From positions 1 through 33,116 of IMG/VR virus record IMGVR_UViG_3300020417_002350: a DNA stretch of 33,116 nt. The stretch is one strand, 5' to 3'. How positions within the stretch are numbered: the stretch's first letter is position 1; the number at the start of each line of letters is the position of its first letter. A model generated the notes under the pieces. It was not told where the DNA came from, did not search any database, and was given only the letters and a program-made list of their open reading frames with translations. A program made the translations under genes and the position numbers. This document shows, piece after piece, positions 1,204-25,097 of this stretch. The DNA comes from a virus.

Positions 1204-1233
1204 GCGAGATCTGCTGCTGCGTCAGGGTTCCGA

Positions 1234-2094
1234 TCAGGAAGCAGGCAAGGTGTAAACCTCGGCCAACCCATAGGCAGTCATCAGGTCTTCGAGCTCAGTG
1301 CGTTCAGCAGCCGAAAGAGTCACAGCGCCGATCAGGTCGTCAATGCACTGCTGGATCACCAAGGCCTGAGGCAAGCCAGCCTTGGCCTCACCAATGGAGG
1401 CGATGAACTCGGTGCAGTAAACGTTCACAGCCAGAGTCTCAGCAGCTTGCGCGCGGATCGCTGCGTAGACAGGACTGGCCTGCAAGGCGCCATAGAAGGA
1501 TCGATAGTCGACGACTGGATACTCGATGACTTCGCCCAGCTCAGGCCAGCCAGTCAGAGCATCAGGGTTGGCCTCAAACTCGAGCTCCTCAGGGATTGCA
1601 GGTGTTAGCTCCTCTCCTGTCTCTTCATCAAAGGTCGGAGGCACAAAGTCTTGAATGACTTTTGTGATGACCGGGAGCGCTGTAACTAGAGCCGCCAGTT
1701 CGTCGACATCAGCGCAGGCGTCGATTTCACCCGCACGGACCTCAAAAGTTGAGCGGACCCCTTGGCGATACAAGGCCACTGCATCAGGGATCGGACGACC
1801 AGAATCGTGAGCGCGGGCCGCGTACCAATCGGTTTGGAGCAGGAAATGCCCAGCCGCCACTCTCTGCTGGGCGGTCCATTGCTCTTTTAATTCATCGAGG
1901 TCTTTCGGCGTCTCTGCGTTCCAGTAGAAGCGCGCGTCGTAATCAGGTTCGGGATCAGGAGCGACCCATGTGATCCCCAGAGCATCGCGCTGAGCCTGCG
2001 TCGACTTTCGCAGCCAATCGGCCGGGTACTGATTGCCCTCGGAGTCTTTAAAAGCCCTGTTTAGGGGCAGGGGCTCTCCGTCGAGGTAGTACAT
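1234..2094 (-). CDS. Tail-fibre-assembly-like structural protein, two modules
   Basis: The 286-residue protein has an N-terminal part (1-130) that reads MYYLDGEPLPLNRAFKDSEG and continues with QYPADWL, acidic and aromatic residues and RFYWNAETPKDLDELK. From memory, this layout recurs in marine cyanophage proteins encoded next to tail fibres; I cannot name a domain with certainty. The C-terminal part (about 205-286) is an Ala/Leu-rich helical module (SFYGALQASPVYAAIRAQAA). There is no signal peptide or membrane segment. It follows the large tail fibre gene and precedes the head morphogenesis gene, so a fibre accessory or chaperone role is plausible. A GGAACACTAGG motif lies 28 bases before the ATG. 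The function is inferred from context only. Confidence 0.7.
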   Translation of the reverse strand: MYYLDGEPLPLNRAFKDSEGNQYPADWLRKSTQAQRDALGITWVAPDPEPDYDARFYWNAETPKDLDELKEQWTAQQRVAAGHFLLQTDWYAARAHDSGRPIPDAVALYRQGVRSTFEVRAGEIDACADVDELAALVTALPVITKVIQDFVPPTFDEETGEELTPAIPEELEFEANPDALTGWPELGEVIEYPVVDYRSFYGALQASPVYAAIRAQAAETLAVNVYCTEFIASIGEAKAGLPQALVIQQCIDDLIGAVTLSAAERTELEDLMTAYGLAEVYTLPAS

Positions 2095-2124
2095 GGGTCA
2101 GGCAGGACTTGCCTAGTGTTCCCA

Positions 2125-4836
2125 TCAAGCACCTCGCGCAGTCTTGAACGGATGTTCGGCCCATGCGAAGCCGATGTAAGTTTTGTTGTATGTGTTCAGG
2201 GCGCCAGTATTGCAGCGAACTTTGAACCCATTTGAGAGGATGTCGATCTCTCTATTTGCTCCTGAATACTCTGAGTAGTATTCATTCGGCATAAGCCACT
2301 TTTCTGCCGGGTTGTCTGGGCTACGTTCGGTGTCAAACAGGATCCAGTTTTCATACCCATCAGAACACTTAATTAGAATTACGCGTGGACGGAAGCCCAA
2401 CGCGACGAAAGGCCCGTCGGCATGGGGGTATCCACCATTGCCATTGCCGAAGTACTTAAACGAGGCAGAGTAGCCCTCAATCGGCGCCCAGCAATAGGCC
2501 ATGTGATTACTATTCGTTGAGTTGACCTCGCTGCCATAACTTAGATAAAACCCTTCATTAGTTGGAGCTGTTCCTCCCCAATAATAGAAGCTGCCTGAAT
2601 AACTATTACTGTAATTCAAATTCAGATAATCATTGGCACTGGGCAAGCCTTTGTGATAAACCGCCCAGTTCGTGTATGAATTTTCATTCTTGACGAATAT
2701 CATCTCCGGTGCTTGCCCCAAACCGTGAGGACATGGGGCCCAGGTGCCATTTCCTACATACCTAACGATTGAAAAACCTTTCGCGGGGTCCGCCTTGATT
2801 TTTGCTTGAAAGTTTGGACTTAAGTGTGTTACGCCGCCCTCGGTATTTGTATAGATCGCACCGCCCATGCCTGAATGATTGGCGCAGCTGTAGTAAATAA
2901 TTGGTGCACCCGCTGCCAGGACTAATGTTGTCTTAGCTCCTGCTTGTCCAGGGGTGCCAGTATGAGTGACGCCTGTGGTGTAGTTGGTGCCGTTAGGAGA
3001 CGTTCCAAATCGCAGCGGATGATTATTGTTGCTGCTGTCTGACTGATCGAACACATAGGTTCCGCCTTCCAGTAATGTCAGATCTGGACCGCCTTGGTTG
3101 AAGGAGTTGAATCTAAATTTGCCCCCAAAAACTGAGACGTTGTAAGTCATATTGGGAGGTTCTCCGTCATCGGCCGACCAAGTCCACGCTACATATTGGT
3201 AGCCATTTCCATTGCAATCGTTGTCGGTGCCAAGGGTGAATCCGTTTGAATTAAGTTGCCAAACCCTGTTATTTGAAGAGGTATTTGGATTCACTTGGTT
3301 TGGTTGCAGGTGAAGGCCAACACCGCGAACTGCATCGGTCAGTTGATGGTGAGTCGAGCTTGTGCGATTTTTGATCCACACTAAATCCGGCTGGTGAGGC
3401 GTAGATATACTGTGATTGGTACTGCCATTGCCTGAATAAGTCGTTGCATCTACTGCTTTTGAACCATCGGGAACTAGAGGTTCAGGCAAGTTAAAAGTAC
3501 ATAGCGACTTGTAATCAGAGGGCGGTCCACCAGTTGCGCCAGGAGGGTACACATACGGGCGTTGGCCAAAATTAACAATACCGCCTGAAAGGCCTGAGTT
3601 GATAACTGAACCGATAATTGGTGTATATCTGCCAGAAATTCCGCTATAAGCGATGCCTAAGTCTGACCCGTTTCTTGAAAAGGCTATAGTCCCGTTATCT
3701 AAATCTAATCGCACTCCAATTACATCATTATTGGAAGCATATCCACCATAAATAGAAGCGTTGCCGTTGCTCCATTTTTGATTTCTATCCATCCACCAGG
3801 TGTAACCTTGGACATATTCGCCTGGGCGTCGATAGCTTGATCTTAGATGCGCCTCTGCAGGGTGAATACCAATTCCAGTGCCATTGCCGTTGACAGTATA
3901 TTCCCAGTACCACTTTCCGCTTGAGACGGCCATAGTGCCTGCGACATTTCCCCAGCCAGAGTAGTTATTTGTAAACTCAAGATTGCCGTGCGAAAGGTCA
4001 AGGCTATTGTTTGCCAGTGGATTCAGGGTGCAGTAATTGCCTCCATTGTTACCACTCGTTGATTCATAGTTCGAAGGCGAATCAATACAACCGTGCGACG
4101 CAATGCTGCCATTTGTTGTGAAATTATTGCCCTGCCCGCTCGAGTCTATGCCAAAGCCAGAGTTTGTGGAGTTTGAAAAATCTAACTTAAATCCATTAGT
4201 GCCATGACCTGTGAATCTTTTTGGCACCCAATTATTGTAGTCATCGAGTTCTGCGAATTCAGATGCGGAAAGTGCTTGAGAGTCGACGAAATTTACCTCA
4301 GCTAAATAACCACCCAAGTAATGATGATTAGAAGCTGTGCTACGGCCAATCCAATGGGGGACGGTGTCGTTGATGGCACAAATACCATTTTGAGGACAGC
4401 TGTATGTGATGAATGACTGGGATTCACCGTTGACGTAGATTTTTATACGATCGGCTGAAGCCGCAGCTGTTGTGTCTATAGACAGCACCAGGTGATACCA
4501 AGCAGAAGGGTCCCTGAAAAGAGCCTGGGTATAAGCAGCTGCCGACATTGTGCCGCCAGCTGCGCTTGACCTAAACCAAAACTGCCTGTAAAACCCGTCC
4601 CACTCAAGAAGACATTGGCCCCTGCTAATGTTATCGCCTGCACTGAATATGGTTCGCTTTCCACTAGGGGCCAAGTCAGCCTGTTTTAGCCAGCAAGAAA
4701 AAGTGAACGTGCTTCGGTTGCCAATAACACTCGGAGTCCTGTAAAGATAGGCCGCCCAGTTTGGATTTAGCAGGAGTGAACGCTCAACAGTGTATGCAGA
4801 GCTGCCAGAAGAGCCGACAAAGAATTCGTTCAACAT
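2125..4836 (-). CDS. Large mosaic tail fibre: LamG, SPRY-like, cupredoxin-like and repeat domains
   Basis: This 903-residue protein is a probable receptor-binding fibre. Domains by reading: a concanavalin-A/LamG-like lectin at about 28-205 (TFSCWLKQADL, WYHLVLSID, IKIYVNG, YLAEVNFVDSQ); a SPRY-like domain at about 285-430 (GKWYWEYTV, GVRLDLDNGTIAFSRNG); a fibre repeat at about 445-555 (PDLVWIKNR, WTWSADDG); a cupredoxin-like insert at about 564-665; and one or two more fibre repeats to the C terminus (GQAPEMIFVKN, FRPRVILIK). The cupredoxin-like part carries a possible type 1 copper ligand set: H606, C651, H654, M657. The gene is richer in A+T than its neighbours, which suggests separate acquisition. 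Its ATG overlaps the previous gene's stop, so the two are probably translationally coupled. Fibre identity is strong; copper binding is inference. Confidence 0.88.
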   Translation of the reverse strand: MLNEFFVGSSGSSAYTVERSLLLNPNWAAYLYRTPSVIGNRSTFTFSCWLKQADLAPSGKRTIFSAGDNISRGQCLLEWDGFYRQFWFRSSAAGGTMSAAAYTQALFRDPSAWYHLVLSIDTTAAASADRIKIYVNGESQSFITYSCPQNGICAINDTVPHWIGRSTASNHHYLGGYLAEVNFVDSQALSASEFAELDDYNNWVPKRFTGHGTNGFKLDFSNSTNSGFGIDSSGQGNNFTTNGSIASHGCIDSPSNYESTSGNNGGNYCTLNPLANNSLDLSHGNLEFTNNYSGWGNVAGTMAVSSGKWYWEYTVNGNGTGIGIHPAEAHLRSSYRRPGEYVQGYTWWMDRNQKWSNGNASIYGGYASNNDVIGVRLDLDNGTIAFSRNGSDLGIAYSGISGRYTPIIGSVINSGLSGGIVNFGQRPYVYPPGATGGPPSDYKSLCTFNLPEPLVPDGSKAVDATTYSGNGSTNHSISTPHQPDLVWIKNRTSSTHHQLTDAVRGVGLHLQPNQVNPNTSSNNRVWQLNSNGFTLGTDNDCNGNGYQYVAWTWSADDGEPPNMTYNVSVFGGKFRFNSFNQGGPDLTLLEGGTYVFDQSDSSNNNHPLRFGTSPNGTNYTTGVTHTGTPGQAGAKTTLVLAAGAPIIYYSCANHSGMGGAIYTNTEGGVTHLSPNFQAKIKADPAKGFSIVRYVGNGTWAPCPHGLGQAPEMIFVKNENSYTNWAVYHKGLPSANDYLNLNYSNSYSGSFYYWGGTAPTNEGFYLSYGSEVNSTNSNHMAYCWAPIEGYSASFKYFGNGNGGYPHADGPFVALGFRPRVILIKCSDGYENWILFDTERSPDNPAEKWLMPNEYYSEYSGANREIDILSNGFKVRCNTGALNTYNKTYIGFAWAEHPFKTARGA

Positions 4837-6032
4837 CAGGCGATACCCTCGGCCACGTTACCCATTAAGATTTCCGAGCTGCTCTTCACATAGAACGGAA
4901 TGATCGCCGGGAATGCAGCGATAGTCGGGGCGCCAGCACCGCCAGGAAACTTGAACACAGAGTTCCAAACAGCAGGCCCCGCAGTAATGCGAATTAGGCC
5001 TGAAGTTCCGACTGTTGCATTGGTAGGAGCAGGGACAGTGATAGCGCCACAGGTCCAGTGATTGCCGGTCGCAAGATCAAAAGAGCCAGCGGTAATGGTG
5101 CGCTCAGTTGTTTCGTAAGTGCCACCAGCGGAGACCTTGCCAGCAAAGGCAGCAGAGCCGTCACCATTGAAAGTGATAACTGTGGTGCCTGCTGAGTAAT
5201 GATCAGAAGTCCATCGAGAAAGAACAGTTGACGCAAATTGGGAGTTTGTAGCAGTAATTTCACTTCCATTATTGACCGTCAACTTCCCTGCAAACGTAGC
5301 AGCACCATCGGCAGTGAATTCGATTGTGTCAGTTGTGCCATCTCCTGCATAGTTCAGGAAAGTTGCTTGGCTGCCTGACTTACCACCAGCACCATTAATA
5401 ACTACTCTTTGGTCACCTTGCAGAACTCCACCAAACGTCGCAGAGCCATCGTGATAAACCCTAAATTTATCTGTGCCAGCAACGCCGTCGTAAACCTGCA
5501 GAGCCACGTTGCTGCCGCCGGTTCCAAACACTGAGATGAAGCTGGTCCCCTCGGTATCTGGATTGCACCGAACACCCTTTCTGAAGTTTACCTCGTCTAC
5601 ATCAAGGTCAATTTTATTAGCAAACGAGGCAGAGCCGTCAGCATTTAAGACAACATTGTCATTCTGGCTAGCACCACCACGACCACCTTGGATGCGAACC
5701 ATTGCAGTGGCATCTGTTTTGTCTGTAGCGCAGAAGATCTCACCAGTGGAAGCAGTCAGGTTGACGCGAGTGACTCCTGATGCAGGCATAACGTTGACGC
5801 TGTCTGTAAACGTCGCAGTGCCGCCCGTGCTCAGGTCAATCCCTGTTCCGATCTCAACGTTGCCAGTGAACTGACCGCTGTCTTCACGTACCAGTGGATA
5901 ACCGCCTGCAGTTTGGCCGTCATGAACAACAACGGTCTTCTTAGTGGTGTCGACCGTGAGCTCACCTGCTGCGCCCGTAAAGGTGCTGTGCTCAGTAGTA
6001 CTGCCACGACGTGATTGGATTTGGGTGGACAT
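4836..6032 (-). CDS. Tail fibre protein with repeated DGSAxFAGK segments
   Basis: The 398-residue protein begins MSTQIQSRRGSTTEHSTFTG and continues GELTVDTTKKTVVVHDG, the beta-rich N-terminal attachment module common in marine phage fibres. The body repeats a short segment about every 45-55 residues: NADGSASFANK, HDGSATFGG, ADGAATFAGK, GDGSAAFAGK. This fits an elongated beta-structured shaft. The C terminus (about 310-398) looks like a separate globular tip (GNHWTCGAITVPAP). It starts inside the stop of the 51-residue gene upstream (TGATG) and its own stop overlaps the next fibre's ATG, so three genes form one translational unit. The structural role is well supported; the receptor is unknown. 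Confidence 0.82.
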   Translation of the reverse strand: MSTQIQSRRGSTTEHSTFTGAAGELTVDTTKKTVVVHDGQTAGGYPLVREDSGQFTGNVEIGTGIDLSTGGTATFTDSVNVMPASGVTRVNLTASTGEIFCATDKTDATAMVRIQGGRGGASQNDNVVLNADGSASFANKIDLDVDEVNFRKGVRCNPDTEGTSFISVFGTGGSNVALQVYDGVAGTDKFRVYHDGSATFGGVLQGDQRVVINGAGGKSGSQATFLNYAGDGTTDTIEFTADGAATFAGKLTVNNGSEITATNSQFASTVLSRWTSDHYSAGTTVITFNGDGSAAFAGKVSAGGTYETTERTITAGSFDLATGNHWTCGAITVPAPTNATVGTSGLIRITAGPAVWNSVFKFPGGAGAPTIAAFPAIIPFYVKSSSEILMGNVAEGIA

Positions 6033-6187
6033 CAGGAGAGTGCTCCGTAATCTTCAGTGGATGTGGGGGAAGAGGTGATCAGGCCGTAATCCTTGTCTCC
6101 ACTACCAGCAAGAGCAATCAGGTCGACAGTCAAACCATCGGAATTGACGATTTCGTCAACCTTGATCCTTCCGTAAGTGTCAGACAT
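6032..6187 (-). CDS. 51-residue stand-alone fibre N-terminal module
   Basis: This very small gene begins MSDTYGRIKVDEIVNSDG and continues TVDLIALAG. The same layout opens two larger fibre proteins in this window (MPYGKILADEIENSGGS and MPFGTLKADGLLNSNGD, both then reading DLTV). Here the module stands almost alone, ending after an acidic/Ser-rich tail (SSPTSTEDYGALS). It starts 45 bases after a GGAACCCTAG motif and its TGA overlaps the next ATG. It may be an adaptor or anchor that joins a fibre to the tail, or a remnant of a longer fibre. Coding status is supported by the homology and the tight overlap. Confidence 0.7.
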   Translation of the reverse strand: MSDTYGRIKVDEIVNSDGLTVDLIALAGSGDKDYGLITSSPTSTEDYGALS

Positions 6188-6235
6188 GTGTCTTGTTGGC
6201 GGTGGGTATCTACCCGGTCCGTCTAGGGTTCCTGA

Positions 6236-6553
6236 TTAGCCAACAACGACCCAGGTGTGGCCGCCTGGGACCTCAATGGTCACGCCATCGGACACCTCTA
6301 CGTCGTTGATGCTCAACATGTTTCGCCCTGTCGGCAGGGTGAAGTCGTCGTCAATGACGCGCTTAGTGGTAACAAAATCTGAATCTCCACCACCGCTACC
6401 AACCTCGACAATCGTGTCAGTCGTGCCGTCGCTCTGCTTGATGTAGATCTTGCCATCGCGCGTGTTAATCGCGATTTCCCCAAGTGCCAGGTCAGTTGTA
6501 AGGGGCACTTTGCCAGCAACTGCTGAGCGCTTTAGACGTACTGTGTTTGCCAT
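6236..6553 (-). CDS. Short fibre/adaptor protein, MANTVRLKRS type
   Basis: The 105-residue protein reads MANTVRLKRSAVAGKVPLTT, LALGEIAINTRDGKIYIKQSDG, then a short beta-rich tail ending PGGHTWVVVG. The first 55 residues are a common N-terminal module of marine phage tail fibres. The same module opens the 505-residue fibre next door (MANQIRIKRRAAGG, LNAEL-type strand, DDSKLYIGVG). I chose the ATG giving MANT because it matches that paralogue; an upstream in-frame start would add eight unsupported residues. It lies downstream of a terminator, with a diverged motif copy (GGAAACCTG) 46 bases before the ATG. It could be a truncated fibre that kept the attachment module and a small tip. Confidence 0.75.
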   Translation of the reverse strand: MANTVRLKRSAVAGKVPLTTDLALGEIAINTRDGKIYIKQSDGTTDTIVEVGSGGGDSDFVTTKRVIDDDFTLPTGRNMLSINDVEVSDGVTIEVPGGHTWVVVG

Positions 6554-6606
6554 GTGGCTATAGCTGCGCCCTATCAAGGGCTGATCGCTACAGGTTTCCA
6601 GGCAAT

Positions 6607-6682: not shown

Positions 6683-8200
6683 CTAGAACGTACCCCCATC
6701 GATCGTCGCACTAGGGCTCAAGTAATCAGTGCCGTCGACAGCTGCACTAAAAGCGTTCACTCCGTTGCCCTTGACCAGGCCGGTGAGTGTGCTGACGCCT
6801 GTGCCGCCATCGCCAACGGCGAGGGTGCCATCGATGGCTGAATGACTGAGATCCAGGGCAAGGCTTGACCCAGAGCCGACGTCGAACTTGATGCCTTTGT
6901 TGGACGCCAGCCCGACGTAGAGGGTGTTGCCACTTTTCTCTAGGCCATTGCCAGCTGTGATCTGGCCAGCACCTGAAAACTGCTCGAACTCAATATCATC
7001 GACCCCAACACTGATGGCGCCGTCAGAGACCAACACATAGCCATTGTCGGCTTGGGTGTTGCCCTGCTCAACAAATACAAATGCGCCGGGCGTGATGTTG
7101 GCCGTGCTGTCGAAATCATCAGCACGAACCCATGCGCCAGACTGGACGACATAGATGCCGTTCTCCGCGGCGCTGGTTTGGTTTTTGACCAAGATGCGGT
7201 TGCCGGCAGAGATGGCCTGACCATCGACTCCGTTGCTCGTTCCGCTAAGCGTGATGTTTGTTGTTGTGGCCAGCTTGACCGACGGCTTTACGTCAAGCCC
7301 CTGCGCAATGCTGTCGACATAGCCCTTTGTGACCGCGTCGGCGTCACCAGTAGGGGTAGCCAGGCCAGTGATTTTCTGGTTGTTCAGGCTGACATCAGCG
7401 GTAGGTGCCGCGAGCTGATCGAGGCGGTTCGCTTGAACTCCAGCGTCGAAGTCTGAGACCTGGTCGTGGGTGATGTCAATCGCAACGTCACCAGCGGCGC
7501 TGAGGCGACCTTGCTGATCAACAGTGAAGGAACGGACCGAACCGGCTGCGTTGTAAGTGCCAGGCGTGACAGTTGTGTTGTCGAGGCTGACTGTCAGGGT
7601 GCTGCTGTTGTCACCCGTGGTGGTAAGACCCGTGCCGCCATTGATGTTCAGGTTGCCGTTGGCATACTCGGCGGTGCCGCTGTCAGCGCTAACCGTCCCT
7701 GAGCCGTCTTCAAGAGCTGTCTCAAGCTCTTCGAGGGCCGCTTTGACAGTGATGTTGTCACTGAGAGTCGTCCCGGTCCCACCAAAGGTGCCGAGATGGG
7801 TGTCGCCGTCAGAAATGCCAATGGCGCTCCGGTTTTGGCTGATGTCGGTGGTGACCGCATCAACCTGATCCTGGACGTTAGATGTGACACCTGAGAGATA
7901 GTTGATCTCAGCGGCCGTAGCAGAAACAGTGGCGCCGCCAATCTGCAAAGTTCCGGAGACGTTGAGAACGCCTGAGAAAACTTTATCTCCGCTAATTGTC
8001 TGATTAGTGTCCAGCGTTACATGAGCGCCAGGACCACCCAGGGTGATGATTGATGTCGCAACACCCGCTCCGTTGTCACCTACGCCGATATAAAGTTTCG
8101 AATCATCTTCATTGAATGCCAACTCGGCATTCATCAACGAGGCAGGACTACCGGCGCCACCGCCAGCGGCCCGCCTCTTTATGCGGATTTGGTTAGCCAT
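6683..8200 (-). CDS. Tail fibre protein, 505 residues
   Basis: The N-terminal attachment module is MANQIRIKRRAAGGGAGSPA followed by MNAELAFNEDDSKLYIG. The middle contains phage fibre repeat phrases: AAEINYLSGVTSNVQDQVDA, a GTYNAAGSVRSFTVDQQGRL segment and DAVTKGYVDSIAQGLDVK. A tip region (about 290-410) includes GQAISAGNRILVKNQTSAAE and NGIYVVQSGAW, typical of long side fibres. The protein ends in IDGGTF, a motif shared with its neighbours. It sits between two terminators, and the upstream terminator's T-run ends one base before the ATG, an unusual arrangement. Fibre identity is strong by composition and phrases; the receptor is unknown. Confidence 0.85.
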   Translation of the reverse strand: MANQIRIKRRAAGGGAGSPASLMNAELAFNEDDSKLYIGVGDNGAGVATSIITLGGPGAHVTLDTNQTISGDKVFSGVLNVSGTLQIGGATVSATAAEINYLSGVTSNVQDQVDAVTTDISQNRSAIGISDGDTHLGTFGGTGTTLSDNITVKAALEELETALEDGSGTVSADSGTAEYANGNLNINGGTGLTTTGDNSSTLTVSLDNTTVTPGTYNAAGSVRSFTVDQQGRLSAAGDVAIDITHDQVSDFDAGVQANRLDQLAAPTADVSLNNQKITGLATPTGDADAVTKGYVDSIAQGLDVKPSVKLATTTNITLSGTSNGVDGQAISAGNRILVKNQTSAAENGIYVVQSGAWVRADDFDSTANITPGAFVFVEQGNTQADNGYVLVSDGAISVGVDDIEFEQFSGAGQITAGNGLEKSGNTLYVGLASNKGIKFDVGSGSSLALDLSHSAIDGTLAVGDGGTGVSTLTGLVKGNGVNAFSAAVDGTDYLSPSATIDGGTF

Positions 8201-8201: not shown

Positions 8202-8230
8202 AAAAAAGGGACCGTTGTCGACAGGGTCCC
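8202..8230 (-). terminator. Intrinsic terminator directly abutting the start codon of the 505-residue fibre gene
   Basis: The minus strand shows GGGACC, a 10-12 base loop (cTGTCGACAAC), GGTCCC, then six T, C and the ATG. The stem and T-run are good. Because it lies in the leader of the next gene, it may act as a terminator for the gene before it or as an attenuator of the gene after it. Confidence 0.8.
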
Positions 8231-8260
8231 CTAAGGCTTCCGTTAATTGTTCCAATCTAA

Positions 8261-8542
8261 TCAAAAATTGCCGCCGTCTTGAACACCGCCATTGACCCAT
8301 TCGGCGCCGTTGTAGTTCAACGACTCCCCAGCAACTGCGTTCTGAATGTTGTAATTCAAAGGATCAGAAGCTGGATTCGCTCCACCGACAGCCACTAAGG
8401 TCCCGTTTTCGTTCATGTAAAGGCGGTCCTGATCAATGGCGTAAGCCAGTTCGCCGTCGTAGAGGTTTTGGATATTTGCAGTCAGGTCGCTGTAGTTGCC
8501 ACGAGCAGGCCGTATTGGATTCCTCGGCGTAGGTGTCGGCAT
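8261..8542 (-). CDS. Small fibre-associated structural protein ending in DGGNF
   Basis: The 93-residue protein contains NIQNLYDGELAYAIDQDRLY and MNENGTLVAVGG, a version of the fibre module (GELA... DGKLY...) seen in the neighbouring fibres. It ends GGVQDGGNF, the same C-terminal type as the neighbour ending IDGGTF. A GGAATCCTGATT motif lies 30 bases upstream of the ATG, and a terminator follows shortly after the stop. It is probably a short fibre, adaptor or tail accessory protein. The homology to the fibre module supports coding; the exact role is unknown. Confidence 0.7.
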   Translation of the reverse strand: MPTPTPRNPIRPARGNYSDLTANIQNLYDGELAYAIDQDRLYMNENGTLVAVGGANPASDPLNYNIQNAVAGESLNYNGAEWVNGGVQDGGNF

Positions 8543-8574
8543 AGGTCGGGCGGAGACTCGAATCAGGATTCCGA

Positions 8575-9897
8575 CTAGCTGTTGTTATCAGGGCCAGTCG
8601 TTGTTCCGAAGTACGGATCCGAGATGTCCTGTCCATCGACAATCTGCTCGTCGGTCGCAGAAGAGCTTCCGGAGGTGAAGTCACCACCATCGAAGACCTG
8701 AGATGTCGTCGTTGAGCTTTCACCAGTGTTGAAGTCGCCGCCGTCTCCCTCGGGTGTAAATGCACCGCCATCGCCAACCATGAGATGCGCGAGCGCTTGT
8801 TGTAGGTCGACCCAGCTGCCGTTCTGGCGCACGTAGAAGCGACCATCAGCGGGTGCCTCAGGAATGCCGCCAGCTGCGCCTCCAGAGACCTCCCACTTGA
8901 TCTGCTTTGGGGTCGTGGTGGCATCGGTGGTGATCGTGACGCCGGGGCCAGCGACGAACTCGACAGGCTCTTCTCCGGTTGCATCCAGAGTCTCCTCGCC
9001 GTCAACGTGCCATGGGTTGAACGTCGAGCTCATGCTGATCAGAGCTTCGTTGTTGCCCAGATCAGTGACGCCGAAGCCGCTTTCAGTGTTGAACGCCAGC
9101 GAGGTGACGCCCGTGAGCAGGTTCTGCTTTGGGCCGGCGTTGGCGATCGGGTCGCCCAGGGCGTAGGCGCGCTCGCTGACCTCGAAGCCATCGAAGCTGC
9201 CGCTGCCTTCTCCACCTCCGCCGCCGTTGTAGATGGCGCCAGAGTCGCGGGGGACATATAGCGGCTGCCACTTCCCGTCTTTCCACGTGAGGACTTGACG
9301 CTCTTCTGCGTCAACACTGAGCACGTCGCCCAGGTCCTTGAGTTCGGCATCTCCAAGGTCGACAGCTGTGCCGTCCGCGCCGTCCTTGCCTGCAGGTCCG
9401 GCCGGTCCTTGAGGGCCCCGGGGCTGAGGCATGAGCGCCAGGTCGCCCACCATCTCCTTGAGGCCTGTCACCTCGTCGCGCAAGACCTCGATCTGTTCCT
9501 GGCTCTGCTGCTTGGCCTGCAGCGTTTCGGCCTGAAGATCAGCTTTGAGTTGCGCCTTCTCGACCTTTCTGTCCTGGTCGCGCTTTGCTTGACGCATTGC
9601 CGCGATCTCGACGCGGGTCAGCATTTGCGTCAGGACGCCGCGCATCAGCGGGGCAGCGCCCCGCATGTCGAAGCCAGCCTTGCGCAGTCCAACGATCGTC
9701 AGGTCGAGCATGGCGCTCGAGTTGCCGATCAGGTCGATTAACCAAAGACGCGAGAAGCCATCTTCTGGGTGCTTGTAACCACGAACTACAACCTCGATGC
9801 CCGGGGAGCCTTGTGCCTCACCAATCGAGACGACCACGCCAGGCAGGACGTGGCGCTTCACCAGAGCCGCTACTTCTGCTGCTTTGGTGAATGCCAT
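8575..9897 (-). CDS. Collagen-like tail fibre/adaptor protein with a coiled coil
   Basis: The 440-residue protein has three visible parts. Residues 1-90 are a globular domain (MAFTKAAEVAALVKRHVLPG, then RLWLIDLIGN), possibly attaching to the tail. Residues about 95-155 form a charged coiled coil (KRDQDRKVEKAQLKADLQAE). Then comes a short collagen-like stretch, GPQGPAGPAGKDGADG (about 161-176), typical of trimeric phage fibres. The C terminus has repeated GDGGDF / FDGGDF phrases, related to the DGGxF ends of the two neighbouring proteins. A CGGAACCCTAGG motif lies 28 bases before the ATG; no Shine-Dalgarno is seen. The trimeric fibre call is inferred from the coiled coil and the collagen triplets. 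Confidence 0.83.
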   Translation of the reverse strand: MAFTKAAEVAALVKRHVLPGVVVSIGEAQGSPGIEVVVRGYKHPEDGFSRLWLIDLIGNSSAMLDLTIVGLRKAGFDMRGAAPLMRGVLTQMLTRVEIAAMRQAKRDQDRKVEKAQLKADLQAETLQAKQQSQEQIEVLRDEVTGLKEMVGDLALMPQPRGPQGPAGPAGKDGADGTAVDLGDAELKDLGDVLSVDAEERQVLTWKDGKWQPLYVPRDSGAIYNGGGGGEGSGSFDGFEVSERAYALGDPIANAGPKQNLLTGVTSLAFNTESGFGVTDLGNNEALISMSSTFNPWHVDGEETLDATGEEPVEFVAGPGVTITTDATTTPKQIKWEVSGGAAGGIPEAPADGRFYVRQNGSWVDLQQALAHLMVGDGGAFTPEGDGGDFNTGESSTTTSQVFDGGDFTSGSSSATDEQIVDGQDISDPYFGTTTGPDNNS

Positions 9898-9928
9898 AGG
9901 AGCCTCAGGGTCCGCCTAGGGTTCCGAT

Positions 9929-10462: not shown

Positions 10463-10505
10463 GCCTAGACCTGCAAGTGCCAGGAGTGTTCCGTGGCTAG
10501 CTCAT

Positions 10506-15283: not shown

Positions 15284-15307
15284 AGGGTTCCTCCACTTCG
15301 GAACCCT
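15284..15307. promoter_or_regulatory. Back-to-back motif pair between divergent genes
   Basis: AGGGTTCC and GGAACCCT form a perfect 8-bp inverted repeat with an 8-base centre. The left copy reads toward the small basic proteins (30 bases to the ATG), the right copy toward fibre cassette 2 (35 bases to the ATG). It may be two divergent promoters, or a single hairpin or operator. Confidence 0.7.
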
Positions 15308-15334
15308 GGGGCAGCCAAATGAGCCCAGCCCGTC

Positions 15335-16186: not shown

Positions 16187-16473
16187 TGGCTCTCGAGGTA
16201 TTTAGCGGGAGCAGTGTCACGCTCCCCGTGCTTAGCGGCACTGCAGTCCACTCGGAGGTCGACGTTGTCACCATCCCCTCCGGTGGCATTTATGTGCCGA
16301 TAGGGCTGGACTTTTCCAGCATTGTTGAAGACGGTTTCACGCAGATCAATGCTGACTTTTCTAGGCAGGCTGCATCGTCTTCTTTTACCGAGGTCAATGT
16401 CGGCGGCAGTGGTGACACAGTTCCTAAAGTTGGCATCATTTTTCCGCGCGGTGTTCCGCTTTTCTGCGCATAG
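16186..16473 (+). CDS. Companion protein of cassette 2
   Basis: The 95-residue beta-rich protein begins MALEVFSGSSVTLPVLSGTA and continues VVTIPSGGIYVPIGLDFSSI. It is coupled to the larger gene by a one-base overlap. Its stop codon overlaps the GGAACCCTTGG motif of cassette 3. It occupies the same position as the companions of the other cassettes; its function is unknown. Confidence 0.65.
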   Translation: MALEVFSGSSVTLPVLSGTAVHSEVDVVTIPSGGIYVPIGLDFSSIVEDGFTQINADFSRQAASSSFTEVNVGGSGDTVPKVGIIFPRGVPLFCA

Positions 16474-16481
16474 GAACCCTT
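16473..16481 (+). promoter_or_regulatory. GGAACCCTT motif upstream of cassette 3
   Basis: AGGAACCCTTGG lies 30 bases before the ATG of the third cassette, and overlaps the stop codon of the previous gene. Confidence 0.6.
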
Positions 16482-16502
16482 GGGCACTGTCGAGTGTCCT
16501 TC

Positions 16503-18520: not shown

Positions 18521-20086
18521 CTAGGCGCCTTTTCTGGCCAGGTCTTTCTTGGCCTCGCTCTCGCTGACCTCTTCGCCGGCGCCCTCATTGGGCTCAGGGA
18601 CGAACGATGCGGGGTCACTAGCAGGTCCAGGGGTTTCACCCATGCCCATCATGGCTTGGGTCTCTTGGACAGCGAGCTCCTTCTCTTCCTGAATCCTTTG
18701 GAGCTCTTCTTCGATATTGAGGTCGGGATCTAGTACGCCGCCACGCTGCAGCTCTTCGAGGGTGGTCTGATGACTGATCAGGCCGTTGACGTTGAGGTTG
18801 GTCAGCTGCGCGACGTCGTTCGCTTCCATCGGCTTGCTGAGCAGTGAGTCGCTCAGGCTGATTCCTGACTCAGGATGCAGTTTTTCCCCGCTGTACTGGG
18901 TCCAGAAATAGAGCAGCTGGCGGAACGCGGACAGCTTGCCCTCGATCAGGGCCCGTACCTGGGAGCTCACCTGGGAGCTAGCCAGTGCTGCTTCGGTTGC
19001 TGTCCGGTTGCCACCATCGCCCCAGAGGAACGACAGAGAGGCCTCCTTCATGAGCTTCTCAACGTGAAGAACCTCTTCCTGGTGACGCTGCAGAGAGCCA
19101 CCGGAGATCTCAGCCCAACGGAAGTCTCCACCTTCAGGCAGGTCGAGGACACTGTTGGGTCCAATGGTCAGGGGCTTGGGTGAACCGTCAGGCAGCAGGG
19201 AATCGCCAACACGGACACCAGCAGGCAGGGCGCACTTGTGAATCAGTTCAGACAGGTCGCTGCGCAGCTGCATGTGCTCGATACTCAGCTGAGCTAATGC
19301 GTCCATGGCGACATCAGAGGAACCCATGGCATTGGTGGTTGCACCCATCCACACCATCGGAATCTCATTGAGGCTTGTCGTGCCCTCCTCAAGGACCTCT
19401 TCCTGATACGTGCCGGCCTTAGTTACGCGCAGGGTGACCTTGCGATATGCGCCAGGCACCATGACCATGAAGACCTCCTGCGACTTGCTGCCGTAGTCGC
19501 CATCAGGCACTTCTTCTTCAAGGCGGATCACGACCAGGTCGAGCACCTCGCGGCCGCCGTCAAGGTGTGAGCGCCAGTTGATCACCTGTGAGCGCTCTAA
19601 TAGCACCAGGTAAGGACGACGACCTGATCGGATCTCCTCAATCTTGGAGGTGACGCCAGGTTCGGCAAGGGGCATTTCCACAAGAACGGCCGCGGCCCCA
19701 TCGCGCAGCACAAGCTGATCGACGTCGGACAAGAATCGGCGCAGGCTCGAGCCGCGCATGTCGACGTCATTCAAGGACGCTTCGAGGCTCGGAGGCGCCT
19801 CACTGATCTGGAATCGGGACAGCAATCCAGAGAATGAACGGATGGCGTCTCTGTAAGTAGAAGGATATGAACTGCGACCGATGCGACCCTGGTAGGCATC
19901 AGTGGGCTCGCCTACTTCCTGCGGCAGGTACTTTGCGCGGACAGAGCGGGTGGCGTTATCACCTTCGCGAGGCAGTAAATGCCAACAATCTTTAGCCCGC
20001 TGCAACAGGGGCGCGATACCCGCCAACTCAGGACGTTGATAACTGACCAGCTTTGGATTGTTCGACGGTGCGTCCTGTAGTGCCAC
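18521..20086 (-). CDS. Portal protein, DUF4055 type
   Basis: The portal forms the dodecameric DNA channel at one vertex of the capsid. The 521-residue protein has typical portal features: an N-terminal region with TRSVRAKYLPQEVGEPTDAY and SYPSTYRDAIRSFSGLLSRF, a central ERSQVINWRSHLDGGREVLD / VVIRLEEEV (clip/stem region), and SELIHKCALPAGVRVG, SFLWGDGGNRTATEA and KLSAFRQLLYFWTQY (C-terminal barrel and helix). The tail (about 450-521) is Glu-rich and probably disordered. It matches the DUF4055 portal group by memory. The start is GTG (MALQDAPSNN), 34 bases after a CGGAATCCTGATG motif, with no Shine-Dalgarno. It follows a 47-residue gene. Family identity is strong. Confidence 0.88.
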   Translation of the reverse strand: MALQDAPSNNPKLVSYQRPELAGIAPLLQRAKDCWHLLPREGDNATRSVRAKYLPQEVGEPTDAYQGRIGRSSYPSTYRDAIRSFSGLLSRFQISEAPPSLEASLNDVDMRGSSLRRFLSDVDQLVLRDGAAAVLVEMPLAEPGVTSKIEEIRSGRRPYLVLLERSQVINWRSHLDGGREVLDLVVIRLEEEVPDGDYGSKSQEVFMVMVPGAYRKVTLRVTKAGTYQEEVLEEGTTSLNEIPMVWMGATTNAMGSSDVAMDALAQLSIEHMQLRSDLSELIHKCALPAGVRVGDSLLPDGSPKPLTIGPNSVLDLPEGGDFRWAEISGGSLQRHQEEVLHVEKLMKEASLSFLWGDGGNRTATEAALASSQVSSQVRALIEGKLSAFRQLLYFWTQYSGEKLHPESGISLSDSLLSKPMEANDVAQLTNLNVNGLISHQTTLEELQRGGVLDPDLNIEEELQRIQEEKELAVQETQAMMGMGETPGPASDPASFVPEPNEGAGEEVSESEAKKDLARKGA

Positions 20087-20110: not shown

Positions 20111-20254
20111 TCAGGATTCCGAAGAGACATGCAGGTGCAGCTCCTCCCAGTCGAAGTCATCCGGCAGGTCAGCCAACAAAGCAGCAATCCTCTGAATGCG
20201 CTCCTGTCGGCTCTGCTCTGCCAGCTGCATCGCTTGCAGGAATGGCGACGCCAT
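20111..20254 (-). CDS. Small acidic helical protein before the portal gene
   Basis: The 47-residue protein begins MASPFLQAMQLAEQSRQERI and ends LADLPDDFDWEELHLHVSSE then S: a long amphipathic helix and an acidic tail. It starts inside the stop of the previous gene (TGATG) and its stop overlaps the portal's GGAATCCTGA motif. A GTG one codon upstream is an alternative start. The function is unknown. Confidence 0.6.
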   Translation of the reverse strand: MASPFLQAMQLAEQSRQERIQRIAALLADLPDDFDWEELHLHVSSES

Positions 20255-20492: not shown

Positions 20493-21113
20493 TCAGTTGA
20501 ATTCGATGACTTCGTAGCTGGTTGTATTGATGCCGGTGCCACTGGCCCTGGACACCAACAGCTGCGTTGATGACTGCAGGGAAAGCCGGGTCTCAGTTAT
20601 GGCAGTGCTACTGCTTGCGAGGTTGTTCGTTGCGCCGAGGTGGCTGATCATCGTCTTCGACATGTCGACGGACGTGATAGTGGCGCTCGCGAAGTCGGTG
20701 CCATTCATCGCAATGGTCCCCCTTTGAATGCTGCTAATCACGGAGCCTCCTAGAGCGGCGATTGCTTGAGCGACTCGCAAAGGAGTCATCACTTGTGTGT
20801 TGTTGGTGCCAGCCTCGGCCTCAGCCTGGGTGGCTATGGGTAGTGTTCCGTCGAGGCCGTCCAGTTTCGTTTTATCAGCGTCCGTAAATGCGTTGGTGTC
20901 AGCCTCTGCTTCGTAGGCAGTTTTGATGTCTGCGCCAGTCATCGCAACGTTGGCCTGGGCCCCTGCCTCGACGCCGTCGAGCTTTGTCTTATCGGCTGCT
21001 GACATGTAACCCAGCGCGCTAGTCGTCGCTGTGTCGCTGGTTATGACGGTCAGATCCACGGTGTCCCCGTTGGAGTTCAAGAGCCCGTCAGCTTTGAGAG
21101 TCCCGAAAGGCAT
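20493..21113 (-). CDS. Tail fibre protein, 206 residues
   Basis: The N-terminal module MPFGTLKADGLLNSNGDTVD then LTVITSDTATTSALGYMSAA matches the opening of the 131-residue protein at 24.3 kb and the 51-residue stand-alone module at 6.1 kb. DKTKLDGVEAGAQANV follows, a phrase very common in marine cyanophage fibres, and recurs in a shorter form (DADKTKLDGLDG). AEAEAGTNNTQVMTPLRVAQ, also common in fibres, comes next. The C-terminal tip (about 130-206) is Ser/Thr-rich. A GGAATCCTGG motif lies 31 bases upstream and a terminator just before that. Fibre identity is strong. Confidence 0.83.
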   Translation of the reverse strand: MPFGTLKADGLLNSNGDTVDLTVITSDTATTSALGYMSAADKTKLDGVEAGAQANVAMTGADIKTAYEAEADTNAFTDADKTKLDGLDGTLPIATQAEAEAGTNNTQVMTPLRVAQAIAALGGSVISSIQRGTIAMNGTDFASATITSVDMSKTMISHLGATNNLASSSTAITETRLSLQSSTQLLVSRASGTGINTTSYEVIEFN

Positions 21114-21137
21114 GGCCTGATACTGCTGAACAGTCCA

Positions 21138-21144
21138 GGATTCC
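21138..21144 (-). promoter_or_regulatory. GGAATCCTGG motif after a terminator
   Basis: It lies directly after an intrinsic terminator and 31 bases before the fibre ATG, so a new transcript would have to start here. This is one of the clearest cases for the motif being a promoter. Confidence 0.65.
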
Positions 21145-21173: not shown

Positions 21174-21176
21174 AGG

Positions 21177-21437: not shown

Positions 21438-23905
21438 CAGATGACTCCTGTCTTGAAGATGTTTTGAGCGGATTGAACGGGCGAGGCGTTGTCTGAGGTG
21501 TACTTAACCGTGACCCGGTAGTAGGTGTTCTCAGAGAGCGTTGGCTTGTTGGTGTTCCAGGGTGCCGAGCCGTCTTGCCCAGAGGTTGCGTCCAAGTCGT
21601 CGTAGGTGTTGATCAGTGTCCAGGGACCGGTCTCACTAGCGCCGCTCTCTAGGGTCCAGACGCGCTTCGACAGTGTTGCGTCAGTGCCTGTCACGGCAGT
21701 CGTTCCGCCATTGCTGGACGTGAACACAATCGACGTAGGCGAAGGAGATGCTGCGCTGACGCTTGCGCCTTTGATGTACTTGCCGACAATGAAGTTGCCA
21801 TTAACACCGCTCACGTAGAAGGTGTTGTTTACGCGGCTGACGACAGTGCCAAACGTGGCCGCGGCGAAGGACTTGCTGACTGTGTCGCCATTGGCCCAGG
21901 TTCCGCCGTCGACGAGCATCGTGCTGTTGCTTGCGTCCTTGCTAACGATTGCAACGCCTGGCTCGATGTCGATCGTCAGGCCGTTCACATTCGGCTGGTT
22001 GGGATTGTTCCACCAGAAATAGCGTCCAGTGCCCTTGTAGCCACCAGAGACGGCTGTGCCACTCGTACCAGAGTTGTAGGTATCGCTGGCCGCGTTTGTT
22101 GTCCTGAGGCTGCTGATGCCGTTCTGAATGATCGAGGCAGTGACGACCTCGCCCATGTCAATGACGTAGCACTCAGTACCACCGGAACTGGTGCCCCAGT
22201 CGCCGGAATAAATAGAATTGCTACCGATGCCTAAGGTCTTGACCGTCGCGTTCGTGCCCGGACCTGAAGAGCCGCCACCACCAACGGCGTTGTTCTGAGA
22301 AAGGTCCGACCAGGTTGTAGCGAGACCCCAGCTCGACCCCTGGTAGCCGGCTGCGTAGGGATGGCCGCCCCAGCCGATGTATGTGTCAGCGGAGCCATCA
22401 AACCCCTGCACGAAATCGCCGACCTGAAACTCGTCGAAGCTGCTGTTGTTTGTAAAAGTGAGCGTAGTCCCCGCCGGCTGGTTATCGACAAGCTGGTTTC
22501 CGTCGACTGTCACTCCGCAGAACGTCGTGTCGTTTGCCGTGTGGCAATCAATAGTGAAGCCAACGACATTGGATTTTGAACCAATAGCGAACTGGCAGGT
22601 GTCACCAGGGCCAGTCCTCGGAGCCGTGGTGTTGTTCCAGACAGTTTCAGTTGAACCGTTTGCGTACTCGAAGATGATCGTGTGGTTGTCGTTCTCAGGG
22701 ATAGCCGTCGAGTAGATGACGAAGTTGCCACTTTGAGCAGGGGACAGCGTGATGCTGAGCACGGCGCCGTTCGTCTTCCTGTCGTAAGTGCCTTCATGGA
22801 TTGGATCCCCTTGGAAAGCGTTTGAAGACGTGCCAACTGCGACGAAATCGGTGACAACGTTTGTGACGTTAGTGATTGCGCTTGTTTCGGAATTCGTGAA
22901 GTCCGTGCCATCAGCTTCGGCCTGAGTGGCCGTGCCGATGATGCGGCTCAGCTGATCGGGACCCGAGAAGGTGAGCGCTGCGTCGTAAGGGTCGCTATGC
23001 GTCAGGGTGTCGCCGGTGCTGTAGTACTGACCCGAGAGGGTGATCTTCTTGGTGCTCGAATTCACGTCCTGAATCTGGCCGCCAGTGCTTGGGATGTCTC
23101 CGGCCGAGAAGAGACTGAAGTTTGTGGCGTCAGGAAACGTCATCACTGAGCCGTTGAAGAACTTGCCTATCTGGCCGATTGCCTTCGGGTTGTTCATCAC
23201 GATCCAAAACACCTGGCCAGTAACTACGGCAGGAAACGTCGTGATGGGTGTGCCGCTGTTGTGCAGATCTGACTGACCTGTGCCGTTGACAGAGGTGATG
23301 TTTGTGCCTGGGTTGAAGATCAGAGTGACCGTCTGAGGGAAGCGGAACGCATAGCCCTGGGAGATGCTGCCACTCGTGTCGGAGGTGGAGCCAAACAGGC
23401 CTTGTTGGACTGTGAAGGGGCTCGAGAAGTTGATTGTCTCGCTGGTGCTCGAGTAGCCCGCGCCGCTGCCCCAGTTAGCGAAGCTGCTGGCTTGGCCGAG
23501 GTTGTTCCACGTTTGGTTATTCCAAGCAGAAGCCCAGCCAGCCCAAGCGCACTGGACGTTCACGGTGCTGCCAAAGGTTCCGAGTTGAACGCTGGAGGCT
23601 GCACTCGTCGACTGAGGCAGAGATCCAGCCGGGCCGACAGTGGTGATGTCAGCAGTGAGCGGCTGCTCAGTACCCGTGGGGTTCAGCCCTGCACCATTGA
23701 CAGGTGACTCGATGTTGACAGGCGATTCGATTAACCCGCTAGGCCCCAGGTCCAGGTCCTGAGCCTGCATCTTGTACTGGGTGCCACTGCGCTCGACAAG
23801 CAGCAGGTCGGTGTCGTTGAGAGTGCTCATGTCGGTGTAGGGAACTTGGTACTGGACGCCGGATCGCTCAACCAAGAAAAGATCGTTATCGCTTGGAGTG
23901 CTCAT
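21437..23905 (-). CDS. Large tail fibre/virion protein, 822 residues
   Basis: The N terminus holds two copies of a module: NDLFLVERSGVQYQVPYTDM and TDLLLVERSGTQYKMQAQDL (about 6-50), the form seen in cyanophage fibres and baseplate-associated proteins. A short linker repeats ESPVNIESPVN. The body is Ser/Thr/Gly/Asn-rich with many beta strands and no catalytic motif; it includes ATQAEADGTDFTNSETSAIT (near 320-340), similar to fibre phrases. The C terminus has a fibronectin-like stretch (GPWTLINTYDDLD, SENTYYRVTVKYTSD). Its ATG overlaps the end of the 131-residue gene by four bases. A structural role is strong; the receptor or function is unknown. Confidence 0.82.
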   Translation of the reverse strand: MSTPSDNDLFLVERSGVQYQVPYTDMSTLNDTDLLLVERSGTQYKMQAQDLDLGPSGLIESPVNIESPVNGAGLNPTGTEQPLTADITTVGPAGSLPQSTSAASSVQLGTFGSTVNVQCAWAGWASAWNNQTWNNLGQASSFANWGSGAGYSSTSETINFSSPFTVQQGLFGSTSDTSGSISQGYAFRFPQTVTLIFNPGTNITSVNGTGQSDLHNSGTPITTFPAVVTGQVFWIVMNNPKAIGQIGKFFNGSVMTFPDATNFSLFSAGDIPSTGGQIQDVNSSTKKITLSGQYYSTGDTLTHSDPYDAALTFSGPDQLSRIIGTATQAEADGTDFTNSETSAITNVTNVVTDFVAVGTSSNAFQGDPIHEGTYDRKTNGAVLSITLSPAQSGNFVIYSTAIPENDNHTIIFEYANGSTETVWNNTTAPRTGPGDTCQFAIGSKSNVVGFTIDCHTANDTTFCGVTVDGNQLVDNQPAGTTLTFTNNSSFDEFQVGDFVQGFDGSADTYIGWGGHPYAAGYQGSSWGLATTWSDLSQNNAVGGGGSSGPGTNATVKTLGIGSNSIYSGDWGTSSGGTECYVIDMGEVVTASIIQNGISSLRTTNAASDTYNSGTSGTAVSGGYKGTGRYFWWNNPNQPNVNGLTIDIEPGVAIVSKDASNSTMLVDGGTWANGDTVSKSFAAATFGTVVSRVNNTFYVSGVNGNFIVGKYIKGASVSAASPSPTSIVFTSSNGGTTAVTGTDATLSKRVWTLESGASETGPWTLINTYDDLDATSGQDGSAPWNTNKPTLSENTYYRVTVKYTSDNASPVQSAQNIFKTGVI

Positions 23906-24297
23906 GGCAGGGTCGGAAGGCTGGACAGCGATGCGTTCTGCAACTTCACCCAGTTGCCGCCGTGGGCGTAAAACAGCGCACCCTCTGCGTGGACGTGAGC
24001 CACTGCGCCATGGACACCTGAAGCAGCAGGCAGATCGCCCGTGGTTGCGTAGAGGACAGGATTGAGGTCGCCAGCCTGGAAGAGGGTTGGCTTGTTGGTC
24101 AGGTCGTCGTAGTCACCAGAAAAGCCAGCCACGTTGGCCTGGGCTCCAGCCTCAATGCCGTCCAGCTTCGCCTTATCAGCAGCTGACATGTAGCCCTTGG
24201 CCGATGTCGTCGCGTCGTCAGTAACGAGGACCGTCAGATCAAGACTCGAGCCACCCGAGTTCTCAATCTCGTCGGCAAGGATTTTCCCGTAGGGCAT
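23902..24297 (-). CDS. Short fibre protein sharing the MPYGK N-terminal module
   Basis: The 131-residue protein begins MPYGKILADEIENSGGSSLD then LTVLVTDDATTSAKGYMSAA and DKAKLDGIEAGAQANVAG. This is nearly the same as the first 60 residues of the 206-residue fibre at 20.5-21.1 kb. The second half is DLTNKPTLFQAGDLNPVLYA and ends with a small tip. It could be an adaptor connecting the 822-residue fibre to the virion, since the two overlap by four bases. A GGAATCCTGAGG motif lies 35 bases before the ATG. Confidence 0.78.
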   Translation of the reverse strand: MPYGKILADEIENSGGSSLDLTVLVTDDATTSAKGYMSAADKAKLDGIEAGAQANVAGFSGDYDDLTNKPTLFQAGDLNPVLYATTGDLPAASGVHGAVAHVHAEGALFYAHGGNWVKLQNASLSSLPTLP

Positions 24298-24322: not shown

Positions 24323-24469
24323 TCAGGATTCCGAGAACTCCTTGACCGCGATGTCGTAACCCTTCAAGAGCATCGCCTTCTTGACGATCGCAAGAGCGAT
24401 GTCTCTTTTGTCTGTGACCTCGGTGACCTCAATCTGCCCAGGCATTTTGTAGGTGATCTGAAAAAGCAT
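24323..24469 (-). CDS. Unknown 48-residue protein
   Basis: The protein begins MLFQITYKMPGQIEVTEVTD and continues with a helix (ALAIVKKAMLLKGYDIAVKE). Its ATG overlaps the stop of the previous gene (TAATG), and its own stop overlaps the motif of the next one. The tight packing is its main support; the function is unknown. Confidence 0.6.
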   Translation of the reverse strand: MLFQITYKMPGQIEVTEVTDKRDIALAIVKKAMLLKGYDIAVKEFSES

Positions 24470-24660
24470 TAGATCAAGTCGTTATCGAACAGCGCAGACA
24501 TGAGGCAGGCGTAGAGCTGTGTCTTCATCTGGATCAATCTTTCCTGCTCCGAAGCATCGCCCCCGGGCCACACTCTCAACGCTGTATCGGTTGCACTGAG
24601 CATGGCCCGCAGGGTTTCGATGTTGGTTTCGATTGAAACGACGATGTCCCGCTCGTCCAT
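24469..24660 (-). CDS. Unknown 63-residue helical protein
   Basis: The protein begins MDERDIVVSIETNIETLRAM and continues LSATDTALRVWPGGDASEQE and a final helix. I chose the ATG that forms a TGATG overlap with the previous gene; an in-frame ATG four codons upstream lies inside that gene. No family is recognised. Confidence 0.6.
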   Translation of the reverse strand: MDERDIVVSIETNIETLRAMLSATDTALRVWPGGDASEQERLIQMKTQLYACLMSALFDNDLI

Positions 24661-24932
24661 CACCCTTTCCATTTGGTGCGATTAGCCCAATAGGCCGCGG
24701 ACATCTTGCCCTTGGCGATGTTCTTGGCATGGCGATCCCTAAAGGCTTTGCGCTGAGCAGCGTTCTGATTGGTCTTTGCGCCCTGCTCACCGAAGCGAAT
24801 GGTCTTGATCTTGTCGCCTTCCTTGGCCACGACTACGTGGCTCTTAGTTTTGTGATTAGGTGTGCGCTTGGGCTTGTTGAAACCGCTGACGCCAGCCCTT
24901 TCGAGTCGAGGATCTTTCTTTTTGCCGGCCAT
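24660..24932 (-). CDS. Conserved small basic protein, possibly DUF6321
   Basis: The 90-residue, strongly basic protein begins MAGKKKDPRLERAGVSGFNK, continues PKRTPNHKTKSHVVVAKEGD, KIKTIRFGEQG, and ends AKNIAKGKMSAAYWANRTKW. I recognise this pattern (DPRL, GFNKPKRTP, KSHVV, IRFGQQG, RHAKNI.KGKMSAAYWAN) from many phages and from memory link it to DUF6321, with some doubt about the number. The role is unknown; it may be a virion or DNA-associated protein. A GGAACCCTAAGG motif lies 28 bases before the ATG. Confidence 0.78.
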   Translation of the reverse strand: MAGKKKDPRLERAGVSGFNKPKRTPNHKTKSHVVVAKEGDKIKTIRFGEQGAKTNQNAAQRKAFRDRHAKNIAKGKMSAAYWANRTKWKG

Positions 24933-24950
24933 CGAGCTACTGAGAGAGCC

Positions 24951-25097
24951 TTAGGGTTCCCCGAGAACTCCGCCTTGCAGCCTGATGTACTCCTTGCAGG
25001 CTTCGAGGCTCTTGGATGTCATGCAAAACATGCCGTGAAAGTGCACGGACCAGTAGCCATTGCCTTTGCAGATGATCGTGTAAGCCATAGGGTGCAT
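24951..25097 (-). CDS. Unknown 48-residue protein
   Basis: The protein reads MHPMAYTIICKGNGYWSVHF then HGMFCMTSKSLEACKEYIRL, with a C-terminal QGGVLGEP. A compact beta-hairpin-plus-helix fold is likely. An alternative ATG three codons downstream would start at MAYT. A GTTAGAAC motif lies about 11 bases upstream. Its stop overlaps the GGAACCCTAA motif of the next gene. Confidence 0.6.
   Translation of the reverse strand: MHPMAYTIICKGNGYWSVHFHGMFCMTSKSLEACKEYIRLQGGVLGEP

Follow-up and report, generated by a model that had tools for sequence, protein, structure and literature searches.

GGMANNCTRG, a candidate late promoter element of cyanosiphoviruses related to P-SS2 and S-CBS2

Late promoters that consist of a -10 element only and are read by a phage sigma factor are a known kind, with phiEco32 gp36 and T4 gp55 as examples, and the candidate instance in cyanosiphoviruses described here is new. 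The T4 late promoter consists of the -10-only sequence TATAAATA. T4 late promoters are read by gp55, and gp33 and the sliding clamp gp45 are required (PMC2988020). The middle and late promoters of phiEco32, six of which have been mapped, carry the single element tAATGTAtA, read by the phage sigma factor gp36 (PMC8948821). Cyanobacterial SigF promoters have TAGGC at -32 and GGTAA at -12 (PMC2758279). Short repeats before genes are also found as the Start-Associated Sequences of cluster K mycobacteriophages, which lie 3-7 bp from the start codon of non-structural genes and contain a Shine-Dalgarno core (PMC3203893). In the paper on cyanophage P-SS2, the group-2 sigma factor was assigned to sigma70 promoters and the target of the group-3 protein was left open; a text search of that paper did not find a late motif, and in the open-licence literature that we searched we found no description of the motif, of a SigF-like reader or of a group-wide use among cyanosiphoviruses.

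The DNA analysed here (the window) is a linear viral contig of 33,116 bases. Its portal protein showed 46-49% identity to the portals of P-SS2, S-CBS2 and S-CRES1-3 and its class II ribonucleotide reductase 58-60% identity to those of the same phages, which places the phage near the P-SS2/S-CBS2/S-CRES group of cyanosiphoviruses. IMGVR_UViG_2775506767_000005 (74,693 bases, G001 hereafter) was the closest relative that we found; its portal is 86% identical and its DNA is 73-80% identical over seven blocks. Gene starts in both contigs were taken from a simple purpose-made gene caller. Other features of the window include a tail protein with an Mtd N-terminal domain (4836-6032, minus strand; PF18454), a CpeS-like phycobilin lyase domain (12818-13291, minus strand; PF09367) of a sort already known among cyanophage metabolic genes, and a stretch of 67 bases (15089-15155) that is 85% identical to part of the ribonucleotide reductase alpha gene of Synechococcus phages such as S-B28 and may be a gene fragment or a mobile piece. 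Upstream of three small genes on the minus strand (starting at 14998, 13291 and 26655) we found GATARCnTGT followed by palindromic stretches resembling GTTCGAA or GTTCGTAC, a possible operator.

The initial annotation had listed fourteen copies of the motif in the window, and we found every one of them on the coding strand, before the gene named. Thirteen have their first G 28-35 nt upstream of the start codon, and the remaining copy has it 45 nt upstream. On the minus strand, GGAACCCTGA (1222-1231) is located 28 nt before gene 1-1203 (encoding a Mu F-like minor head protein), GGAACACTAG (2113-2122) 28 nt before gene 1234-2094, GGAACCCTAG (6223-6232) 45 nt before gene 6032-6187 (encoding 51 aa), GGAATCCTGA (8563-8572) 30 nt before gene 8261-8542, a second GGAACCCTAG (9916-9925) 28 nt before gene 8575-9897 (found at the same place in G001, at 9491) and GGAACACTCC (10483-10492) 30 nt before gene 9929-10462, after a terminator-like stretch. 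Further along the same strand, GGAACCCTAT (15282-15291) precedes a 25-aa reading frame (15184-15261) by 30 nt, GGAATCCTGA precedes the portal gene 18521-20086 (20111-20120, 34 nt) and the tail-fibre-like gene 23902-24297 (24323-24332, 35 nt), GGAATCCTGG (21135-21144) lies 31 nt before the tail-fibre-like gene 20493-21113 and 14 nt after a terminator, and GGAACCCTAA (24951-24960) lies 28 nt before gene 24660-24932. In G001 the portal gene has a diverged copy, GGAAGCCTGT, 33 nt before its start. On the plus strand, GGAACCCTGG is found 29 nt before gene 13363-14244 (13334-13343) and 35 nt before gene 15335-16186 (15300-15309), and GGAACCCTTG (16473-16482) 30 nt before gene 16503-17318. The two diverged copies reported before 6553 and 8200 are real as well: GGAAACCTGT (6590-6599, minus strand) lies 46 nt before the tail-fibre-like gene 6236-6553 and GGAAGCCTTA (8232-8241, minus strand) 41 nt before the head-decoration-like gene 6683-8200.

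The observation that the motif flips with the strand of the genes was confirmed in the window and in the relatives, including two contigs close to G001. The description of the associated genes as structural does not extend to all 14; the genes starting at 13363, 15335 and 16503 lack a family match and are thus not shown to be structural, and the one at 15261 is the 25-aa reading frame. The position of a copy directly after a terminator was recovered by a terminator scan for 21113 and is visible by eye for 10462, which the scan did not call. Between 15282 and 15309 two late elements, one on each strand, point away from each other with 8 nt between them, upstream of the divergent genes starting at 15261 (minus) and 15335 (plus). 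The lysine-rich frame of 25-26 aa (MPTTYNIKTGK...) with its own late element occurs in the window (15184-15261, minus strand) and in locus L029 (4122-4202, plus strand); it is kept in G001 with a diverged element copy (GGAAGCCTGA) and is absent from the other loci compared.

Plain counting of the consensus with mismatches proved uninformative: with at most two mismatches the whole window held 36 matches against 26 expected, a number reached by 5 of 100 shuffles and thus barely an enrichment. The signal lies in the position relative to gene starts and in the strand. At 27-36 nt before the called starts in the window, GG[AC]ANNCT occurred 9 times on the coding strand, where 0.31 was expected (P=5e-11), and not once on the opposite strand. 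A weight matrix built from the 14 window sites scored above 12 at 15 places in the window, compared with 3 when the sequence was reversed. The same matrix without modification gave 23 matches above 12 bits in G001, which had not been used to build it, and 4 in reversed G001; most of the 23 are located 28-34 nt upstream of a gene. The two contigs close to G001 showed the same pattern of motif before gene as G001 itself.

De novo motif discovery upstream of annotated genes, the check proposed initially, yielded log-likelihoods about twice those of shuffled sequences. The motif was recovered in four relatives with the same spacing (GGyAtmCTA in S-CBS2, GGwA.mCTa in S-CRES1 and GGaA..cTra in P-SS2, in addition to G001), mostly 28-35 nt before starts. 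Sites at 27-36 nt numbered 16 in S-CBS2, 14 in S-CRES1, 17 in S-CRES3, 16 in P-SS2 and 19 in G001, with 0.5-0.7 expected in each, and there were none in the first 50 kb of S-CBS4, in S-CBS3 or in P60, cyanophages of other groups in which we also found no match to the group-3 sigma factor. The motif is therefore not private to the phage of the window, and its position is conserved across six genomes. Pattern counts over whole contigs were noisy in a set of 52 records, since many of these are partial and the pattern is loose, and the site excess was weaker at ribonucleotide reductase loci outside the list of sigma-bearing loci (7 versus 1.5).

The initial annotation had named two sequence-based observations that would speak against a late promoter, namely that the motif is just as frequent within genes or upstream of early genes. 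Neither was made: the excess is specific to the position before starts, and, with genes classified by the annotated map regions of four relatives, sites with A or C at -12 precede 61 of the 169 genes (36%) in the morphogenesis regions versus 8 of the 145 (6%) in the replication and nucleotide regions (P=1e-11). The exceptions outside the morphogenesis regions include the genes of the small terminase subunit and of ribonucleotide reductase.

We aligned 94 sites on the GG and observed GG at -14/-13, A at -11, C at -8, T at -7, A or G at -6 and T at -16, a layout in which GGMANNCTRG aligns with an extended -10 element that would have A or C in place of T at -12. Purines are found at index 14 in 81% and at index 15 in 80% of the sites, two columns that were not used in choosing the sites, and pyrimidines are favoured on either side; this purine initiator is the predicted start, 6-7 nt past the T at -7, and would leave leaders of mostly 13-21 nt. 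The earlier statement that neither a -35 box nor a regular Shine-Dalgarno sequence accompanies the motif was borne out by column, word and tetramer counts: no -35 column stands out upstream of the 94 sites, TTGACA, TAGGC and GTTTAA are no commoner there than in the control region, and Shine-Dalgarno tetramers occur in 18% of the late leaders (about 13% is chance). A CT-rich pattern that the de novo search returned upstream of the sites was considered as a -35 box and rejected, as we read it as terminator tails.

Early genes of S-CBS2 and the S-CRES phages carry TGGTATACT or TGGTAGACT, elements that align base for base with the late motif and differ from it mainly at -12, with T in early and A or C in late elements (Fisher P=1e-4; this comparison is the neutral test, because the late sites among the 94 had been selected partly on their -12 base). 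The rule is not a clean one, because 12 of 73 sites in late regions have T at -12. In the window an element of the early type, GGTAGACTGA (32680-32689, minus strand), with T at -12 and of the class found before sigma genes, lies 38 nt before gene 32079-32651. A cassette TTGCACGTGTTGACA-N17-TAGAACAGGG (TTGACA-N17-TAGAAC) has three copies on the minus strand of the window (11582, 12094 and 26896), two of which precede small genes starting at 11531 and 12041; judged by its sequence, it is an ordinary sigma70-type promoter, in contrast to the late motif.

Two sigma factors, one of group 2 and one of group 3, are encoded by each of P-SS2, S-CBS2 and S-CRES1, the group-3 proteins being gp003, gp077 and gp20, respectively. 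The group-3 gene directly follows terL in 41 of the 47 terL loci with enough sequence, the other six being distant or partial terL matches. G001 contains only a relative of the group-2 gene and the window contains no sigma gene, but this absence is not evidence, since the G001 sequence stops within terL and that of the window stops a little short of where the group-3 gene is predicted, one to a few kb past position 33116. Among 40 group-3 homologues, Pfam recognised region 2 in all 40 and gave no significant region 4 in any of them, and curated models placed the protein with cyanobacterial SigF over sigma2-sigma3 only. In an AlphaFold model (mean pLDDT 78), the place of region 4 is taken by three C-terminal helices, so that a decayed region 4 is possible; fold searches with this model gave general sigma matches with a large rmsd. 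A protein that reads the -10 and extended -10 elements and not a -35 box is what the late promoter would need. The element before the group-3 gene has T at -12 in 37 of the 38 distinct phages with a match, and we therefore predict that the sigma gene is expressed ahead of the late genes.

Two further observations concern sigma gene records. S-CBS2 gp077 (56832-57564; loci L035/L036) ends at 206 aa while similarity to its 244-aa homologues goes on to 57564, a second piece that possibly reflects a frameshift in the record. A genome scan for the group-3 gene found a single MAG contig, DGOV01000074.1 (locus L102), an 82-kb contig of "Proteobacteria bacterium UBA4457" that carries the cyanophage gene and is probably a phage contig binned by mistake.

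The late-promoter reading of the initial annotation is thus supported by position in six genomes, concentration at morphogenesis genes, the extended -10 layout and the purine initiator, and the motif very probably has promoter function. The full account, in which GGMANNCTRG would be the late promoter of the P-SS2/S-CBS2 cyanosiphoviruses and would be read by their group-3 sigma factor, seems likely to us. We infer promoter activity, start site and recognition by this sigma factor from the motif, its position, the class of genes, base composition and conservation. According to this account the late element is an extended -10 that lacks a -35 box and has GG at -14/-13, A or C at -12, A at -11, C at -8 and T at -7. 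It would most likely recruit the host RNA polymerase together with the SigF-like group-3 sigma factor of the phage itself, whose gene directly follows terL. The T(-12) elements, some of them with a TTGACA box, would serve the early genes and the sigma gene, giving a cascade that begins with the host sigma and/or phage group-2 sigma, continues with the group-3 sigma factor and ends with the late genes.

A late promoter could be read by another sigma factor, either the phage group-2 protein (of the S-CBS2 gp061 type), host SigF or a host group-2 sigma. Phage group-2 sigma factors are indeed present in the same genomes, with the relative in G001, and a -12 element that contains GG is read by cyanobacterial SigF too. 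Nevertheless, host SigF needs TAGGC at -32, which is not enriched here, and the phage group-2 protein resembles the housekeeping family in region 1.2/2, while its own gene in S-CBS2 is preceded by TTGACA and TATACT; we consider such a reader improbable.

The remaining alternatives assign a different role to the motif. That it follows the strand and stays close to start codons would also be expected of a translation-start element like the Start-Associated Sequences, but its distance of 28-45 nt and the lack of a pairing core speak against this and the layout fits a -10 box with an initiator, making a role in translation very unlikely. Repressor sites that stop elongation in cluster A mycobacteriophages (stoperators) are, according to the literature, asymmetric, present in many copies and in one orientation relative to transcription. 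Such sites would not be expected to keep a fixed distance of 28-35 nt from start codons, to have a -10 layout or to be restricted to morphogenesis genes, and the motif class occurs in phages both with and without an annotated integrase; we give stoperators hardly any credence. GGAAC resembles the known -35 box of ECF-type sigma factors, and with their spacing +1 would fall near the start codon and the mRNAs would be leaderless. However, no conserved hexamer follows 20-27 nt after the motif, C at -8 and T at -7 are within the de novo motif and early elements in these genomes line up as -10 boxes, and an ECF-type -35 box appears equally far-fetched.

With the group-3 sigma factor as the probable reader, the late element resembles the phiEco32 gp36 system in its use of one element, no -35 box and the host core polymerase, here predicted from sequence (PMC8948821). 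In phiEco32 transcription starts 6-8 bp downstream and the sigma factor lacks region 4; here the predicted start follows T at -7 by 6-7 nt and region 4 is not recognised. The consensus is unrelated, though, the sigma factor is SigF-like, and about 10-20 sites, many of them for single genes, are predicted here versus the six mapped there. A small diverged sigma factor that keeps domain 2 and has late genes as targets is shared with T4 gp55 (PMC2988020), unlike the composition of the element, which is GC-rich here; the T4 system also requires gp33 and gp45. The GG in the late motif fits the SigF family, because cyanobacterial SigF reads GGTAA at -12 (PMC2758279); this GG-A pattern in the -12 region and the match of the phage sigma to SigF models are the likenesses, whereas A or C at -12, the conserved CT at -8/-7 and the lack of TAGGC at -32 set the phage element apart. 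With the Start-Associated Sequences it has in common that short asymmetric repeats precede starts and follow the strand, but those lie 3-7 bp and not 28-45 nt from the start, have a Shine-Dalgarno core that is lacking here and precede non-structural genes (PMC3203893).

Late sites were found after a terminator more often than other starts (11 of 94 versus 16 of 380, P=0.01). In a recurring second layout the terminator separates motif and start codon, and its 5' arm (index 9-17) extends over the predicted start. For the 11 such cases in six genomes, some of them first spotted by eye, the hairpin has -8 to -15 kcal/mol in read-through RNA and 0 to -4.9 in RNA starting at index 14/15; five have a late A/C(-12) element and the others have T(-12) or diverged elements. 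One of these overlaps is at 32976 in S-CBS2. The example in the window is the terminator-like hairpin with T-run at 8207-8233 (minus strand), between the element and the start of gene 8200, whose 5' arm spans the predicted +1 (8227/8228); read-through RNA has -11.8 kcal/mol and RNA from index 14/15 -3.3/-1.2. This register is no independent proof of the start site, because hairpin and motif are both anchored at the start codon. Since the hairpin overlaps the predicted start at about 11 genes, new transcripts should escape the terminator. RNA from upstream would carry the whole hairpin and stop, and promoter-started RNA would lack the 5' arm and run on. Somewhat tentatively, we suggest that some early and late genes may be insulated single-gene units with an intrinsic terminator built across the promoter start which, if true, would by simple means give a late gene a transcription unit to itself.

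The motif offers a concrete candidate target for the group-3 phage sigma factor that is common to Synechococcus and Prochlorococcus phages, and the question of what this sigma factor recognises therefore becomes directly testable. The late element would add a SigF-like case to the -10-only late promoters, one in which early and late appear to be separated by the base at -12, and it would allow late genes in environmental cyanophage contigs to be called from sequence alone.
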